In this document: positions 3,670-64,000 of the stretch, in pieces | Layout of the letters: each line of letters starts with the position of its first letter | Numbering within the stretch: position 1 is the stretch's first letter | Origin: Lysobacterales bacterium 15-68-25 | Lineage (GTDB): Bacteria; Pseudomonadota; Gammaproteobacteria; Xanthomonadales; Rhodanobacteraceae | Length of the DNA stretch: 64,000 nt | Reading direction: 5' to 3' | Assembly: GCA_002279065.1 (NCBI GenBank) | Contig: NCKB01000015.1 | Coordinates: 1 to 64,000, forward strand | Program-made: the position numbers and the translations under genes | The notes under the pieces: generated by a model | The model's input: the letters and a program-made list of their open reading frames with translations, nothing else | Told to the model about the DNA's origin: nothing | Databases searched by the model: none

Positions 3670-4220
3670 GTGGCCTCTCCGTGGTCATCTGCGGCGAAGG
3701 TAGCAGAGGAATCGGCGAGGTAGAGACCACCCGTTTCCTCCGGAAAATGACAACGCGATAGAGGCTGGAATCCGTGGGCCGGATGCGTGTCTTGCACAGA
3801 ACGGCAAGGCCCCGCGTTACTCCGTAACACCACCGATTTTTCTTCCCCCGCGCGAAGGGCGGGAGTAAAATTCATCGCGTCGAGTCCCTGATTCCATACA
3901 CGGCCATGATCACCTTCAATCCGCGTTGGGCCATTTTCGCCAGCGGTCTGTTTGCCACGCTGACCGACGTCCCGCCCGCGCGTTGACCCACTCCGCGTCG
4001 TGAGTCGCGTCCCCAGGCGAAAACCCGCCTGATCCGGACGACGGCCGCCCCTCGAACCGCTTGCACGCCGTGCCGATGCCATTGCATTGGCTGACCGCCT
4101 GCAGCCCTTTCCCGCGAGCCCGCCAACGATTCATGCCGCAGCGCCTTGCCGCCGTCGGCGGCGTCACCGCGCGCGTGCCAGTCCCTGCCCCGCGCGCCCA
4201 TCATCAGGGGAGAAACACCG
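3670..4220. other. Intergenic region without a clear gene
   Basis: About 550 bases. A 26-codon frame at 3906-3986 (MITFNPRWAIFASGLF...) has no ribosome site and is not called. A T-rich patch (gatttttcttccccc, 3835-3849) is followed by a weak G/C hairpin at 3845-3865. The rest is compositionally like degraded coding DNA. The promoter for the 4221-5301 pair should lie in the last 200 bases, but I could not pick a box with confidence. Confidence 0.5.
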
Positions 4221-4418
4221 ATGGATCCACAACCGCGTCACCACCGCGCCAGCCCGTGGCTGTTCGCCGCCTGCGTGGCGCTCTACCTGGGCCTGGTCGG
4301 CCCGTGGCTGATTTCCGCCGCCAGCACGCTGGCGGTCACCGTTGGCCTGGTTTTGCTGGTCGCCCTGCTCGCCTGGGCATGGCGGCTGTTTGGACACACC
4401 TTCACTCAAGGAAAGTGA
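4221..4418 (+). CDS. Small two-helix membrane protein
   Basis: This 65-aa protein starts at ATG 4221 behind AGGGGAG (4206-4212). After a short basic N-terminus (MDPQPRHHRASPW) it has two hydrophobic helices separated by about SAAST, and a short C-terminal tail ending TFTQGK. I do not recognise the family. The stop codon is one base before the ATG of the SPFH lipoprotein gene, so the two are almost certainly co-transcribed and possibly translationally coupled. It may be a small membrane partner of the SPFH protein; that is inference from position only. Confidence 0.75.
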   Translation: MDPQPRHHRASPWLFAACVALYLGLVGPWLISAASTLAVTVGLVLLVALLAWAWRLFGHTFTQGK

Positions 4419-4419
4419 C

Positions 4420-5301
4420 ATGAAGACGATTTTCTCCACCCGCCTGGTCGTGGGCATCCTCGTGCTCGCCCTCGCCTCGCTCTCGCTGACCCAGTGCAGC
4501 AAGGTGCCGGCCGGCAACGTCGGCGTGAAGTTCAAGCTGTACGGCGACGGCAAGGGCTCGCTCAAGGAACTGCCGCCGGGCCGCTACTGGGTGGGCTGGG
4601 GCTACGACCTCTACACCTTCCCCACCTTCACCCAGAACTACACCTGGACCCGCAGCCCCACGGAAGGCTCGCCGAACGACGAGTCGCTGACCTTCCAGAC
4701 CGTGGAGGGCCTGTCGGTGAACGCGGACGTGGGCATCACGTACCACATCAACCCGGACAAGGTGACCACGATCTTCCAGAAGTACCGCAAGGGGGTGAAC
4801 GAGATCACCGACATCTACCTGCGCAACATGGTGCGCGACGCGCTGGTGAAGGAGGCCAGCGTGCTCGGTATCGAGTCGGTCTACGGCCGCGGCAAGGCCT
4901 CGCTGATCCAGTCCGTGCAGGACGACATCAGCCACGAGGTGGCGTCCACCGGCATCGTGATTGAGAAGATCTACTGGATCGGCGAGCTGCGCCTGCCGGC
5001 GACGGTGGTGCAGTCGATCAACGCCAAGATCCAGGCCACGCAGATGGCCGAGCAGCGCAAGAACGAGATCGCCCAGGCCCAGGCCGAGGCGGCCAAGGAA
5101 GTGGCGATGGCCGAAGGCAAGGCGAAGGCCCAGCTGGCGATCGCCGAAGCCGAGGCGCAGGCGATCCGCATGAAGGGCGACGCCCTGCGAGCCAACCCCG
5201 ACGTCATCCACATGACGGCGGTGGAGAAGTGGAACGGCCAGTTGCCGATGTACACCGGCGGCAACTCGGTACCGCTGATCCAGCTGCCACAGGCGAAGTA
5301 A
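4420..5301 (+). CDS. SPFH/Band-7 domain lipoprotein
   Basis: The 293-aa protein begins with a hydrophobic signal (ILVLALASLSLTQC) and a Cys at about residue 26 that fits a lipobox loosely (Gln at -1 is unusual), so membrane anchoring is likely but the lipid attachment uncertain. Residues about 30-200 form an SPFH/prohibitin-type domain (VPAGNVGVKF, YWVGWGYDLYTFP, LSVNADVGITYHI). Residues about 205-260 are an Ala/Glu/Lys-rich heptad region (NEIAQAQAEAAKEVAMAEGK) that should form a coiled coil for oligomerisation. SPFH proteins form ring assemblies that organise membranes or restrain proteases. It follows a small two-helix protein by one base. The exact role is unknown. Confidence 0.88.
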   Translation: MKTIFSTRLVVGILVLALASLSLTQCSKVPAGNVGVKFKLYGDGKGSLKELPPGRYWVGWGYDLYTFPTFTQNYTWTRSPTEGSPNDESLTFQTVEGLSVNADVGITYHINPDKVTTIFQKYRKGVNEITDIYLRNMVRDALVKEASVLGIESVYGRGKASLIQSVQDDISHEVASTGIVIEKIYWIGELRLPATVVQSINAKIQATQMAEQRKNEIAQAQAEAAKEVAMAEGKAKAQLAIAEAEAQAIRMKGDALRANPDVIHMTAVEKWNGQLPMYTGGNSVPLIQLPQAK

Positions 5302-58228: not shown

Positions 58229-58966
58229 TCAGCGCCAACCGGCCTCGCGTGCGGCACGTTCCTCGGCGGCATCGAAGGCGTCGCCGCGAATCCTCGCATC
58301 GACTGCCGCCCGGACAGCGGGCGGCAGCGCGCTGGCCGCCTGGCGGATCGGGCCGGCGCCTTCGCTGGCCGGCGCCACCAGCACCGGCAGCGACCAGCCG
58401 TCGCCGCGGCGACACGCCAGCCCGGCCATCGCCGGTTCGTCGCGATGAACGAACGTGCGGCAGATGACGCCGTCGGCGTCGCGGAAGGTCAGCCCCACCG
58501 AAGTCTCCACGCCGGCTGCCGGAGCACTGGCCAACTGCGTGTCCAGCGCCCGGCGCAACGCGCCGGAGGCGAACGACTGGCCGTCCTGGGTTCGCACCAG
58601 CGGGGGCGGAGCGCCATGCCAGAACAACGCGGCGAGCAGCGCTACCGATGCGGCGAGCGCGGCCGGCACCAGCCAGCGTGCGCGGCGCTGCCGGCCCGAC
58701 CGGCGCGCGGGCAGCGGCACGACCTTCGCCGGCTCGGCATCCGCTGTCGCGGGGGCGCGCAGCAGATCGGCGAGGCGTTCGGGCACCGGCTCGTCCAGCA
58801 CCGGGTCGAAATGTCCGCGCAGCGCGGCAAGCAACGCGCGCTCGCGAGCCACGCGCGCGGCAAGCGCCGGGTCGTTGGCCATGGCCGCCTCGATCCGCGC
58901 CAACTGGGCGGAATCGAGCTGCCCATCCACGTAGGCCCGCAGAGTGTCGTCGTCGATCGGATTCAT
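58229..58966 (-). CDS. Anti-sigma factor (ECF partner)
   Basis: This 245-aa protein has a cytoplasmic N-terminus (DDDTLRAYVDGQLDSAQLAR) of the kind seen in anti-sigma domains, though it lacks the HxxxCxxC zinc motif. One transmembrane helix near residue 100 (WLVPAALAASVALLAALFW) and a periplasmic domain (about 120-245) follow. Its start overlaps the sigma factor stop (ATGA). It should hold the sigma factor at the membrane until a signal arrives, probably through regulated proteolysis. Confidence 0.83.
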   Translation of the reverse strand: MNPIDDDTLRAYVDGQLDSAQLARIEAAMANDPALAARVARERALLAALRGHFDPVLDEPVPERLADLLRAPATADAEPAKVVPLPARRSGRQRRARWLVPAALAASVALLAALFWHGAPPPLVRTQDGQSFASGALRRALDTQLASAPAAGVETSVGLTFRDADGVICRTFVHRDEPAMAGLACRRGDGWSLPVLVAPASEGAGPIRQAASALPPAVRAAVDARIRGDAFDAAEERAAREAGWR

Positions 58967-59469
58967 GCTTCGCTTCCCAGGTGATCTTGCAGGGCACTGC
59001 GCGCGCGGGACAGCCGGCTGGTGACGGTGCCGACCGGCACGCCGAGCAGGTCGGCGGCCTCGCCGTAGGACAGGCCCTCGACCAGTACCAGCGCCACCAC
59101 TTCGCGGTGGTCCTCCGGCAGGGCCGCCATCGCCTCGGCCAGGGCGAGCCGCTGCGCCGGCGGCGCGCTGCCGTCCGCCACCGTCGCCGCGTCGTCGTCT
59201 TCGGGCACGAACACCTCCCGCGAGCGACCGCGTGCGCGCAGCTCGTCGCGCCAGGCATTGCGCGCGATGGCGAACACCCAGCGATCCAGCGCGCCGTCCG
59301 GCCGCCACTGCGAGGCACGCGCCAGCGCCCGCTCGATCACCAGTTGCACGAGATCGTCCGCGTCATCGACATGGCCGGTCAGCGCCCGCGCCAGACGGCG
59401 CAGGCGCGGCAGCAGGTGGATCAGTTCTTCGCGCACTCGCGAACCGCTCTCGGTGTTCTTCATGTGCAT
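58963..59469 (-). CDS. ECF-family RNA polymerase sigma factor
   Basis: This 168-aa sigma-70-type ECF factor has region 2 (LLPRLRRLARALTGHVDDAD, DLVQLVIERALARA, DRWVFAIARNAWRDEL) and region 4 (LPEDHREVVALVLVEGLSYG, EAADLLGVPVGTVTSRLSRA). The start is uncertain between ATG 59469 and ATG 59463; no good ribosome site is seen for either. Encoded with its anti-sigma factor and divergent from a secreted S8 protease, which may be a regulon member. A divergent promoter must lie in 59470-59582. Confidence 0.92.
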   Translation of the reverse strand: MHMKNTESGSRVREELIHLLPRLRRLARALTGHVDDADDLVQLVIERALARASQWRPDGALDRWVFAIARNAWRDELRARGRSREVFVPEDDDAATVADGSAPPAQRLALAEAMAALPEDHREVVALVLVEGLSYGEAADLLGVPVGTVTSRLSRARSALQDHLGSEA

Positions 59470-59582
59470 GACGTTCGAGCCAGGCCAATCCTTCCATCCG
59501 ACGCGAGTGCTCGGTTCGGAAGCATAAATCCGCCCGATGCTAGCATCCGCGCCGTTTCCGTCCTGCCGCTCCGGATCCCCGC

Positions 59583-60845
59583 ATGCGCCTGCCTCGCCAT
59601 CTCCTGTCTGCCAGCATCGCCATTGCCGGTGGGCTGATCGCGCCGGTGGCCTGCGCGCAACTGACCGGCGTGCTGCACGGGCCGCCGCCACTGCCGGCGA
59701 ACCTGCCCGCAATGGTGCCGCAGGTCGCCGTCAGCGGACGCGTCGACACGCCGCGTATCGACGACCTGCTGCGCGGCGTGCGCGCCATGAGCCGTCCGCA
59801 GCAGATCCAGGCCCTGCTGCGCGACCCGTCGCAGCGCGTGGCGCTCGATCCATCCGGCAACCCGGTGCTGCGCGGCGAGTTTCTCGCCACCGGACTCACC
59901 GACGCGGAGGTAGCCACGTTGCAGGGCCTGGGTTTCCAGGTGGAGCGGGCACCTGGGGATCAGGACGACCTGGGCCTGCATCTGGCCATCGTGCGCGACT
60001 TGCGTCGTCGCAAAGAGGCCGATGCCTTGCGCGCGCTCGAGCGCAGCGCCCCCGGCGCCAGCTTTACCTACCAGCATCTCTACCTGCCGGCCGGCGCGAT
60101 CGGTGCCGCTGACGACAGCATCGCTCCCGCGACAACCGACCCGCGCGCGACCCCCGCGCCGATCGAAGTGGGACTGATCGACGGTGGCATCGCCTCGGAT
60201 GCGCCCGCCCTGGCGCACACCCGGATCACCCGGTTCGGCTGCACCCGTCCGGACGCATCGCCTCATGGCACCGCGGTGGCCTCGCTCCTGGCCGACGGTG
60301 TCGGCGACCGGCTCTATGCGGCCAACCTGTGGTGCGCAGACGCGGTGGGTGGGGCCACCTCCAGCCTGATCCGCGCACTCGCCTGGATGGACCGCGAGCA
60401 CGTGCCGGTGATCAACATCAGCCTGGTCGGCCCGGACAATCCGCTGCTCGCCCGGGCGGTGCAGGCCATGCTCGCGCGCGGCCACGTGCTGGTGGCGGCC
60501 GTGGGCAACGACGGCCCCGCCGCGCCGCCGCTGTATCCGGCTGCCTACCTCGGCGTGATCGGCGTCAGTGCCGTCGACAGCCACGACCGCCTGCTACCCG
60601 AGTCCGGCGCGGGCCCGCAGGTGGCGTTCTGCGCCCTCGGCGTGGTCGGCGAGGGGGACGACGCCATGCGCGGGACATCCTTCGCCGCACCGATCGTCGC
60701 GCGACGCGCTGCGCAGCTGCTGGCCGCACCGCAGGCCGGGGCGGCTGCACGCATCGAGGCTGCGCTGGCACGACAGGCCCAGGACCTCGGCGCCCCCGGC
60801 CGCGACCCCCGCTACGGATTCGGGCTGCTCGCGCCGGAAGGCTGA
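59583..60845 (+). CDS. Secreted S8 (subtilisin-like) serine protease
   Basis: This 420-aa protein has a signal peptide (cleaved about ACAQ) and a propeptide-like region (residues about 30-190), then the catalytic domain with Asp200 (GLIDGGIAS), His228 (PHGTAVASLLAD) and Ser366 (RGTSFAAPIVA). The oxyanion Asn is in AAVGNDGP. It should be active in the periplasm or outside the cell. It is divergent from the ECF sigma/anti-sigma operon, suggesting it is under that system's control. Confidence 0.92.
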   Translation: MRLPRHLLSASIAIAGGLIAPVACAQLTGVLHGPPPLPANLPAMVPQVAVSGRVDTPRIDDLLRGVRAMSRPQQIQALLRDPSQRVALDPSGNPVLRGEFLATGLTDAEVATLQGLGFQVERAPGDQDDLGLHLAIVRDLRRRKEADALRALERSAPGASFTYQHLYLPAGAIGAADDSIAPATTDPRATPAPIEVGLIDGGIASDAPALAHTRITRFGCTRPDASPHGTAVASLLADGVGDRLYAANLWCADAVGGATSSLIRALAWMDREHVPVINISLVGPDNPLLARAVQAMLARGHVLVAAVGNDGPAAPPLYPAAYLGVIGVSAVDSHDRLLPESGAGPQVAFCALGVVGEGDDAMRGTSFAAPIVARRAAQLLAAPQAGAAARIEAALARQAQDLGAPGRDPRYGFGLLAPEG

Positions 60846-62127: not shown

Positions 62128-62676
62128 ATGAAGTCCCTGTCTAAGCTGGCCGCCTTCGCCCTCGTGGGCGTGGCCGCCCTCGCCTCGCCCGCCCACGCTG
62201 CGCTGAAGGAGGGCACTCAGGCACCCGACTTCACCCTGCCCGCCTACCTCGCCGGCCAGCCGTTCACCTTCAAGCTCTCCGACGCGCTGAAGAAGGGGCC
62301 GGTGGTGGTGTACTTCTTCCCCGCCGCGCACACGGCCGGCTGCAACCTCGAGGCGCACCTGTTCTCTGAGGCCATCGACCAGTTCAAGGCCATGCATGCC
62401 ACCGTGATCGGCGTGACCGCCGGCAACACCGACCAGTTGTCCGATTTCTCCAAGGAAACCGAGCACTGCAGCGGCAAGTTCCCGGTCGCCGCCGACGAGG
62501 GAGCCAAGGTGGCCAAGCAGTACGACGCCACCCTGATGATGCGGCCGGGCTGGTCCGACCGCACCTCGTATGTGATCGCCCCGAGCGGCAAGATCACCTA
62601 TGTCTATTCCTCGCTCAGCCCGAACAAGCACGTGCAGAACACGCTGGATGCCGTGAAGGCCCTGGAAAGCAAGTAA
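62128..62676 (+). CDS. Secreted peroxiredoxin (AhpC/TSA-BCP type)
   Basis: This 182-aa protein has a signal peptide ending in SPAHA. The thioredoxin-fold peroxidase site is VVYFFPAAHTAGCNLEA, with the peroxidatic Cys at the TxxC position (Ala replaces the usual Pro). A second Cys in ETEHCSGKFPVAAD could be resolving. It would reduce hydroperoxides in the periplasm with an unknown reductant. Start and AAGGAG are clear. It is followed by a possible terminator and the borosin pair, with no sign of co-regulation. Confidence 0.88.
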   Translation: MKSLSKLAAFALVGVAALASPAHAALKEGTQAPDFTLPAYLAGQPFTFKLSDALKKGPVVVYFFPAAHTAGCNLEAHLFSEAIDQFKAMHATVIGVTAGNTDQLSDFSKETEHCSGKFPVAADEGAKVAKQYDATLMMRPGWSDRTSYVIAPSGKITYVYSSLSPNKHVQNTLDAVKALESK

Positions 62677-62696: not shown

Positions 62697-62731
62697 GCGT
62701 CCGGCCGATGTGCTGGACGCCTCCCCTTTTT
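62697..62731 (+). terminator. Possible terminator after the peroxiredoxin gene
   Basis: The stem GCGTCCGG/CTGGACGC (one G-U pair; 62697-62704 with 62713-62720) is followed by ctcccctttttcc. The U run is modest and starts six bases after the stem, so this is a weak intrinsic terminator. Confidence 0.5.
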
Positions 62732-62736
62732 CCGTG

Positions 62737-62761
62737 CATTCGCCGTAACATCCGGCGAATG
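62737..62761 (+). promoter_or_regulatory. Hairpin that sequesters the borosin methyltransferase start codon
   Basis: CATTCGCCG (62737-62745) and CGGCGAATG (62753-62761) are perfectly complementary over nine bases with a seven-base loop. The ATG start codon (62759-62761) and the preceding CGGCGA form the 3' arm. Folding would hide the start, suggesting translation-level control, or else translation begins elsewhere (GTG 62771). Confidence 0.6.
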
Positions 62762-63583
62762 TCCGAATCCGTGAACCCCATCACACCCACATCCCCGCGC
62801 GGCAGCATCGCCTGCGTGGGTGTTGGCATGACCCTCGGATCGCATCTGACCCCGCTGGCGCGCAGCCATATCCAGCAGGCCGACGTGGTGTTTGCCGCCG
62901 TGTCAGACAACATCGTGGAAATGTGGCTGGAACGCATGCACCCGGACGTGCGCAGCCTGCAGCCCTACTACGGTGAGGGCAAGCCGCGGATCGACACCTA
63001 CCGCGAATGGGTCGAGGTGATGATGGCCGAGGTGCGCGCCGGCAAGCGTGTCTGCGGTGTTTTCTACGGTCACCCCGGGATTTTCGCGTGGTCTCCGCAC
63101 AAGGTGATCGAGGTCGCCCGCTGGGAGGGCTACGAAGCCCGCATGGAACCCGGGATCTCCGCCGAGGACTGCCTGTACGCCGATCTCGGTATCGATCCGG
63201 GCACCTTCGGTTGCCAGCATGTCGAAGCCAGTCAGCTGCTCTTCTATGAGCGCAGCATCGACACCACTGGCCACGTCGTACTCTGGCAGATCGGCATGCT
63301 GGGCAACCGGTCCGTTGCCAACCCCGACCAGGGAAGCGCCTACCGCGGGCTGCTCGTCGAACGGCTGCTGCAGGACTACCCCGGGGAGCACGAAGTCATC
63401 CTTTACCGGTGCGCGACTCTTCCTATCGAGCATCCGCGCATCCGCCGTCTGCACCTGTGCGAGCTTCCGCTCGCGGACATTCAGCAGGAAGAAACCCTGA
63501 TCATTCCGCCGGCCAGGCCACTGCGGCGAAATGAGCTCCTGCGCCAACGCCTGGCGATGCTGGACAAGGAGCACGCAGCCTGA
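62759..63583 (+). CDS. Split borosin alpha-N-methyltransferase (SonM/OphMA-type)
   Basis: This 274-aa protein belongs to the tetrapyrrole-methylase fold, with the SAM-binding VGVGMTLG (about 20-27) and FYGHPGIFAW (102-111). It matches borosin N-methyltransferases (fungal OphMA, bacterial SonM) rather than porphyrin enzymes. The active-site residues are in place: Tyr70, Tyr71, Arg77 and Tyr81 in QPYYGEGKPRIDTY, and Tyr103 in FYGHPG. Other shared segments are MEPGISAEDCLYADLGIDPG and VEASQLLFYE. It lacks the fused C-terminal core of fungal borosins, as in bacterial split borosins where the peptide is a separate gene. It should methylate backbone amides of the precursor encoded 160 bases downstream. 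Confidence 0.93.
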   Translation: MSESVNPITPTSPRGSIACVGVGMTLGSHLTPLARSHIQQADVVFAAVSDNIVEMWLERMHPDVRSLQPYYGEGKPRIDTYREWVEVMMAEVRAGKRVCGVFYGHPGIFAWSPHKVIEVARWEGYEARMEPGISAEDCLYADLGIDPGTFGCQHVEASQLLFYERSIDTTGHVVLWQIGMLGNRSVANPDQGSAYRGLLVERLLQDYPGEHEVILYRCATLPIEHPRIRRLHLCELPLADIQQEETLIIPPARPLRRNELLRQRLAMLDKEHAA

Positions 63584-63742
63584 TGCTATTGAGTGGCCCG
63601 GGGGGGGCCATGCCATACAAGACACATTCGCCTTGGCCAGATAACCACAAACGGACGCGAGTCCTTTGTCGGCAGGGCGGATGGAGTATCCGATCACCTT
63701 CCGTGATCATCACTGACATCGCAAGTCATGAAGGGGGAAAAA
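63584..63742 (+). promoter_or_regulatory. Spacer between borosin methyltransferase and precursor genes
   Basis: Contains a run of eight G (63600-63607) beside GGCCC, a small hairpin GATCAC-cttcc-GTGATC (63692-63708), and the precursor's strong ribosome site AAGGGGG (63731-63737). No convincing promoter is seen. An internal hairpin and spacer of this size would allow the precursor to be made at a different level from the enzyme. Confidence 0.5.
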
Positions 63743-64000
63743 ATGCTGGATTCGATCGACATGCTGGAAGCCATCGGACAGGATGCGTCGCTGCGATATG
63801 CGACCGCCGAAGCATTGGCTACCGATAGCAGCCTGGAGGATGCCCCGGAGGCCCTGAAGGCAGCGATCCTCAGCGGCGCCCGGTCCGAGCTGAGCTCGGA
63901 ACTCGGCCATCGCGTCATGCAGGCCACGCAGGTCACCCAGAACCCCGGAAAGGAAGACGATGATGAGGATGAGGACGACGACAAGGAAGGCTCGTCGCTT
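63743..64000 (+). CDS. Borosin precursor peptide (partial, runs off the window)
   Basis: Open frame from ATG 63743 with no stop before the right edge; 86 residues seen. The strong AAGGGGG site fixes the start. Residues about 4-60 (SIDMLEAIGQDASLRYATAE through SELSSELGHR) are a small helical domain of the type that binds the methyltransferase in SonA and in the clasp of OphMA. A short Gln/Thr linker (VMQATQVTQNPG) and a strongly acidic stretch (KEDDDEDEDDDKEG) follow; the hydrophobic core that would be methylated lies beyond the window. No signal peptide is present. Confidence 0.85.
   Translation, partial: MLDSIDMLEAIGQDASLRYATAEALATDSSLEDAPEALKAAILSGARSELSSELGHRVMQATQVTQNPGKEDDDEDEDDDKEGSSL

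Follow-up and report, generated by a model that had tools for sequence, protein, structure and literature searches.

A split borosin pair beside a TPR-GGDEF sensor gene in Lysobacterales bacterium 15-68-25: a possible self-made peptide signal

At the right-hand end of a 64,000-nucleotide (nt) stretch of DNA from Lysobacterales bacterium 15-68-25 (contig NCKB01000015.1, positions 1 to 64,000 of the forward strand, here called the window), a methyltransferase gene is followed by a small precursor gene, and the two are almost certainly a split borosin pair. By the features tested (the enzyme, the separate precursor, and the homology of its borosin-binding domain, BBD), the pair can be assigned to type IV. 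A peptide with a methylated backbone is the probable product of the enzyme of this soil bacterium and its small partner protein. The neighbouring gene, which recurs next to such pairs in numerous related bacteria, encodes a membrane sensor protein with tetratricopeptide repeats (TPR) and a GGDEF domain, so the peptide may act as a signal. The reading towards which we lean, at slightly better than even chances, is that the pair is a type IV split borosin and that the partner TPR protein senses its product, with a change in cyclic di-GMP (c-di-GMP) as the outcome. It is built on the homology to SonM and SonA, the catalytic residues, the gene order, the co-occurrence of the genes, the architecture of the sensor with its GGDEF motif, and the matching of precursors with sensors.

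The methyltransferase frame opens with the ATG at 62759 and closes with the stop codon at 63581-63583 (Table 1); with the in-frame ATG at 62708 as the start, the protein would be 291 aa long. A preliminary description, made from the letters of the window, had placed a borosin methyltransferase here, and rightly so: the three segments that it quoted (PYYGEGKPRIDTY, FYGHPG, and ISAEDCLYADLGIDPG) are all found, and in a phmmer search of all PDB sequences the top match is SonM (7ltc_A, E 2.7e-69), with the OphMA-type enzymes next. The catalytic Tyr/Arg set that it had described is also kept, as Y58, R67, Y71, and Y93 of SonM, the residues probed by mutation in the main text of PMC8429565, are identical in the window enzyme. 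The same is true of F99, E146, W166, and Q167, and all eight are identical in 65 of the 65 aligned enzymes of the same family. The catalytic and clamp residues are those of SonM except for E173 (the "top lock"), where the window enzyme has N and the 65 have N or D. The closest named loci are those of Dyella ginsengisoli LA-4 (81%) and Dyella lutea (78%). In one relative the methyltransferase frame (G123:C1:1028398-1029198) is interrupted by an internal stop codon.

The short acidic gene that had been noted after the methyltransferase is a separate open reading frame (ORF) adjoining it, and a Shine-Dalgarno-like AAGGGGGA, read from the sequence, precedes its ATG at 63743 (the alternative ATG at 63728 would give 101 aa). 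The window stops inside this gene; the same contig extends to 67208, and the frame closes on it 33 nt beyond the window, with a tail ending in ...EDDDEDEDDDKEGSSLGHNGLKASNG. Residues 1-55 of the precursor align with relatives from Dyella, Rhodanobacter, and Luteibacter (12 homologues). Two profiles were compared, A1 for the precursor group of the window itself and A3 for the wider precursor family (12 rows, including the precursor of the window). In a search of 177,635 PDB sequences with A3, the seven best matches are SonA chains (best E 1.3e-5), with an alignment spanning SonA residues 1-64, and A1 matches A3 with an E value of 1.6e-25. The borosin-binding look attributed to the N-terminal domain in the preliminary description is thus borne out through the family profiles, from A1 to A3 to SonA. 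The AlphaFold2 model of the precursor has five helices, at low confidence (predicted local distance difference test, pLDDT, 63.8).

The residues of SonA that are methylated, L63 and I65, map in or next to TQVTQ of the window precursor in the profile alignments, and the core position corresponds to SonA 62-71. At the equivalent site the relatives carry PQ[VIAS][TS]Q-like, CxxLxPG-like, or NN/NH-rich segments, and tail-less tandem homologues stop right after the core motif, for example with the C-terminal FLPQVSQV. The acidic stretch is therefore taken as a tail with the core before it, because of both the SonA alignment and the tail-less homologues that end there, and the core probably comprises approximately residues 58-69 (VMQATQVTQNPG), inside the window. 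As in SonA, a helical BBD comes first and the core directly after; the window precursor has a polar core and an acidic tail, whereas the core of SonA is hydrophobic and its chain stops shortly afterwards, at residue 71. Relatives of the window precursor with hydrophobic cores exist. An array of precursors is found at one locus (L096, G111:C1:1821300-1829000), where a single methyltransferase is followed by tandem precursors mostly ending soon after a PQxxQ-like core. It comprises 12 precursor matches, one of them partial. In the first 11 the sequence beyond residue 60 is just 7-15 residues long, and a strongly acidic tail is limited to the last precursor, which adjoins the TPR gene.

The cassette recurs across the family. 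SonM-like split borosin pairs are not rare there: the methyltransferase is found in 162 of 233 same-family genomes and the TPR region in 158, with both in 157, the methyltransferase alone in 5, the TPR region alone in 1, and neither in 70, so that 6 genomes are discordant (Fisher P 3e-52, a value that does not count independent events, as the genomes are related). Among the first 40 TPR places listed, 39 have a same-strand methyltransferase no more than 5 kb upstream. Stretches fetched around methyltransferases numbered 77, or 74 after the removal of three duplicates, and 62 of these loci are of the same family. The one-strand order methyltransferase, precursor(s), TPR(-GGDEF) gene is observed in 57 of the 62 distinct same-family loci, including L073, L076, and L105, in which the sensor match begins 32-48 nt after the precursor. 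A precursor is present in 61 of the 62, downstream of the methyltransferase in 60 and upstream in L011; L010 is cut off by the end of its contig. The TPR-GGDEF gene past the window and the conserved three-gene cassette lay beyond the view of the preliminary description.

The sensor of the window locus comprises an N-terminal hydrophobic segment (signal peptide), weak TPR matches, a transmembrane (TM) helix, and a GGDEF domain (Pfam E 1.1e-43). Its sequence contains GGEEF, the active-site motif of a diguanylate cyclase, and RPGD, an RxxD I-site. The layout of sensor domain, TM helix, and GGDEF domain is that of the membrane diguanylate cyclases with extracytoplasmic sensor domains in the accessible text of a c-di-GMP review (PMC8846402). 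The model of the Dyella lutea homologue (mean pLDDT 85.5) has a helical solenoid, then one long helix, and then the cyclase, and in Foldseek the cyclase part accounts for the 50 best matches, all of them GGDEF-containing structures. A TM helix precedes the GGDEF domain in 69 of 69 TPR-GGDEF frames, and the N-terminal hydrophobic segment is above a crude cut-off in 56 of them. The GGDEF-type frames of all 74 loci number 81: GG[DE][EQ]F is found in 77, two of the four exceptions being cut off where their locus ends, and the I-site in 63. The TPR region is predicted to be periplasmic; two cysteines are present in 72 of 72 aligned TPR regions, and the invariant pair suggests a periplasmic disulphide. 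Two invariant cysteines, presumably the same, also appear in an alignment that includes three Alteromonadaceae sensors (A2). The source genome has 47 GGDEF matches across 3.9 Mb, and therefore a GGDEF gene would be expected by chance within a given 1 kb in about one per cent of cases.

Precursors and sensors are linked in two further respects. The first is the tail. The 62 same-family loci hold 92 precursors, of which 66 immediately precede a TPR/GGDEF gene. The other 26 are spread over 12 loci; the L096 array alone contributes 11, and one precursor, in L106, has next to no sequence beyond its BBD. If an acidic tail is defined as 8 or more D/E past residue 60, 61 of the 66 sensor-adjacent precursors have one versus 0 of the 26 others, with D/E medians of 11 and 2, respectively. 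The second is core type. Some loci combine one methyltransferase with two precursor-sensor pairs. When 72 TPR regions, including 8 that lack their own precursor, are placed in a tree, the sensors of these loci cluster by core type across loci rather than by locus. Branches with 100/100 support unite the CC[LY]I[NS]P type (L106_2, L111_2, L112_2, L120_1, L121_1), the VC/LC..[YF][LF]PG type (L075, L113, L120_2), and the FLAP/MLAP type (L104, L108, L111_1, L112_1). The sensors of L114 group by locus, and both L114 cores are alike. Core classes assigned by regular expression change 11 times on the tree, whereas shuffled classes average 34.4 changes (0 of 200 shufflings came down to 11); the classes do not form single clades. 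TPR similarity correlates with core similarity (r 0.82; as high in 0 of 5000 permutations) over 14 hydrophobic-core units, picked by hand from the 64 that have a paired precursor. Among L106, L111, L112, and L120, the better sensor match is also the better core match in 5 of 6 comparisons, L106-L111 being the one that disagrees. Co-duplication of the precursor-sensor unit and recognition account for the correlation equally well; under either explanation the unit moves as one.

The arrangement extends to other Gammaproteobacteria. A related methyltransferase is found in 94 of 394 genomes of another gammaproteobacterial order (that of genome G580), and 40 loci of this order, picked for spread, were fetched. 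A downstream gene starting within 1.3 kb encodes a GGDEF protein in 22 of these and a histidine kinase in 10, L168 being assigned to the latter by Pfam. In a Pfam search over these 32 sensor loci together with L064 and L065 from a class-wide sample (n=34), TPR_12 is found in 27, GGDEF in 23, and HATPase_c in 11; the output domain is thus swapped (cyclase or kinase), while at least 27 of the 34 retain the TPR input. The kinases are those of L065, L157, L158, L163, L164, L167, L168, L170, L171, L172, and L174; TPR repeats were confirmed singly in those of L065, L157, L163, L167, L168, L170, L172, and L174, and receiver domains are also present in those of L065, L157, and L163. The pair at L186, one of the 32 sensor loci and from a relative of Shewanella oneidensis, is orthologous to SonM and SonA (E 3.4e-163 and 2.4e-38), and there too a TPR-GGDEF gene follows, its frame opening directly after the SonA stop codon. 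At L175 the sensor gene starts in a frame other than that of its TPR-GGDEF part, and this copy may be broken or its sequence faulty. The class-wide sample (369 genomes) gave 10 with the methyltransferase, two of them of the same family as the window. In four Alteromonadaceae loci (L015-L018) the methyltransferase is followed by a short acidic ORF and then by a GGDEF gene, with TPR found in that of L015. The precursor profile does not pick up the short acidic ORFs of L015-L018, and a PDB search with an Alteromonadaceae precursor gave just one irrelevant ribosomal protein.

Table 1. Features of the borosin locus; positions beyond 64,000 are window-equivalent positions on the same contig
Feature	Position	Strand	Size and basis
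SonM-like borosin-type peptide alpha-N-methyltransferase	62759..63583	+	274 aa; phmmer match to SonM (7ltc_A) and kept residues
Split borosin precursor	63743..64000, on to 64033	+	96 aa; ORF closed on the contig
N-terminal borosin-binding domain, residues 1-55	63743..63907	+	12-homologue alignment; family profile aligned to SonA 1-64
Probable core VMQATQVTQNPG, residues 58-69	63914..63949	+	Profile alignments; homologues ending just after the motif
Acidic C-terminal tail	63953..64000, continuing to 64030	+	Sequence
TPR-TM-GGDEF gene	64062-65831	+	589 aa; just outside the window

In the mechanism that we propose, the methyltransferase would bind the N-terminal helical domain of the precursor and place one or more methyl groups on the backbone amides of VMQATQVTQNPG. 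The product, with or without the acidic tail, would enter the periplasm through a pathway for which the cassette has no genes and bind the TPR domain of the partner encoded just downstream, altering its diguanylate cyclase activity, and through the change in c-di-GMP the cell would sense N-methylated peptide made by itself (or by its kin). Here we infer the methylation, its sites, the export, the binding, and the signalling. A peptide that is the ligand of the sensor is the simplest account, because the enzyme-precursor-sensor cassette is kept, the duplications are matched, the tail is associated with the sensor, and the output domain is exchanged.

Several observations weigh against this account. 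Export is its weak step: the precursor is without a signal peptide, no exporter or peptidase conserved beside the cassette was seen in the stretches (mostly below 8 kb) of the 62 family loci, and any other neighbouring frame is shared by no more than 13 of these loci. The core of the window precursor is polar and is followed by an acidic tail, and the accessible text of PMC11285071 gives the characterised borosin cores as mainly hydrophobic. The link to SonA is not seen close to home. A single-sequence PDB search with the window precursor gave no match, the PDB search with the A1 profile gave no relevant match, A1 alone against SonA is unconvincing (hhalign probability 5.9%, E 0.0065), and Foldseek with the weak precursor model returned a single non-significant match, OphA (E 4.7). 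The gene order also has its exceptions: L011 has the order precursor, sensor, methyltransferase; L089, L094, and L097 have precursors and no sensor within the stretch; and the five methyltransferase-only genomes are all of one genus. Among the eight loci of other families from the class-wide sample, a TPR sensor is found beside the enzyme in L064 and L065 only and in six not at all, and in the order of G580 7 of the 40 loci have no candidate sensor and one has a MASE1-CHASE kinase without TPR. Eight sensors are without a precursor of their own, and five sensor-linked precursors are without a strongly acidic tail. Finally, the loci are mutually related and were chosen by the analyst, and the tail cut-off and the core classes were set after the data had been seen.

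In a different scheme, the borosin is an ordinary secreted natural product (a toxin, a scavenger, or the like), and the TPR-GGDEF protein senses the state of the envelope or the population and times production without binding the peptide. Sensor genes and biosynthesis genes are frequently neighbours. In the accessible text of the review of c-di-GMP inputs (PMC8846402) TPR and tetratricopeptide occur 0 times and "peptide" once, a ribosomal peptide ligand such as the one proposed for the window sensor is not listed, and the quorum signals given are a fatty acid and AI-2. This scheme accounts poorly for the extra sensors, which at loci with one methyltransferase often bring along precursors whose cores match them in type, and for the acidic tail, which tracks a sensor gene directly downstream and would not be needed with a mere regulator; we regard it as unlikely, at about half the weight of an even chance.

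The tracking of the adjacent sensor by the tail, together with the lack of a recurrent peptidase or exporter noted above, would also suit a whole precursor that acts as an adaptor or inhibitor of the sensor, mainly through its acidic tail, with methylation merely fixing its shape and no peptide released. The TPR region of the sensor is predicted to be periplasmic, yet the precursor carries no signal peptide, and conserved cores also occur in tandem precursors without a tail, which makes such a role improbable.

The preliminary description had read the acidic stretch as a linker with the core to the right of the window, and had counted a frame closing without a hydrophobic core against a borosin precursor. 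The frame does close in this way: it continues for 33 nt past the window as ...GSSLGHNGLKASNG and stops at 64033, ending in ...KEGSSLGHNGLKASNG with no hydrophobic segment. The idea of a core survives in another place, before the acidic stretch, as given by the SonA alignment. Nothing was found in favour of the linker, the precursor ends in a short, polar stretch that the aligned homologues do not conserve, and the tail-less homologues retain the PQ..Q motif, so that a core to the right is very improbable. The identification of the enzyme as a porphyrin, siroheme, or diphthine methylase, compatible with its only Pfam match (the superfamily TP_methylase, E 1.6e-21) and with weak NCBIfam matches far below their cut-offs, is ruled out for practical purposes by SonM as the first match, by the residue set, which the preliminary description had expected to be lost in that case, and by the precursor next door.

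Further features surround the cassette. After the sensor gene, a second TPR paralogue (66090-67208, or 4091-5209 in locus L002, where the position is the window position minus 61999) lies on the + strand, without a precursor of its own and truncated by the end of the contig. It is also found in L003, L004, and L098, which form one group with L002 in the TPR tree. Directly upstream of the methyltransferase is a peroxiredoxin-family gene with a signal-peptide-like start (62128-62676), and farther upstream are a subtilase-family protease gene (59583-60845, +) and an extracytoplasmic function (ECF) sigma factor gene (58963-59712, -). The 162-nt stretch separating enzyme and precursor has no notable RNA structure (z -1.32), and a promoter/terminator scan found 0 promoter-like sites and 1 terminator-like site versus 0.9 expected. 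Among plasmid records, 13 hold distant relatives, all below 60% identity.

Among the known systems, the nearest is SonM/SonA of Shewanella oneidensis (type IV; PMC8429565; PDB 7LTC), in which methyltransferase and precursor are likewise separate. In the main text of that paper GGDEF and diguanylate occur 0 times, and as of 2021 it gives no type IV borosin pathway as tied to a final natural product. The fungal fused borosins OphMA and dbOphMA share the methyltransferase family with the window enzyme; their enzyme and core are one chain, whereas the window system has separate genes. A Shewanella borosin product, "shewanellamide", has reportedly been described in a 2023 Chemical Science paper; the name occurs 0 times in the papers searched for it. 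In the literature searched, borosins and GGDEF appear together only in PMC11395268, whose Figure 1 legend (2024) labels GGDEF among borosin architectures, the type and whether fused or adjacent not being readable there; a link between borosins and GGDEF may thus be partly in print already. A sensor function is not proposed in the introduction, section 2.1, discussion, or legends of that paper, and a peptide-to-sensor function for borosins was not found in the literature searched, outside which the mining papers 10.1021/acschembio.1c01002 and 10.1021/acschembio.4c00066 lie.

In general, many gammaproteobacterial split borosins, SonM/SonA included, could be self-made N-methylated signals with dedicated periplasmic TPR receptors and an output through c-di-GMP or, in other lineages, a phosphorelay, in which the acidic-tailed precursors would be linked to receptors and the tail-less tandem copies would form a diversified pool; we hold this broader proposal tentatively, at somewhat less than an even chance. 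In acidic-tailed precursors the probable core is relocated, which matters for genome mining and mass spectrometry. The conserved receptor-like partner offers a testable function for these peptides, and would join ribosomal backbone N-methylation to second-messenger control.
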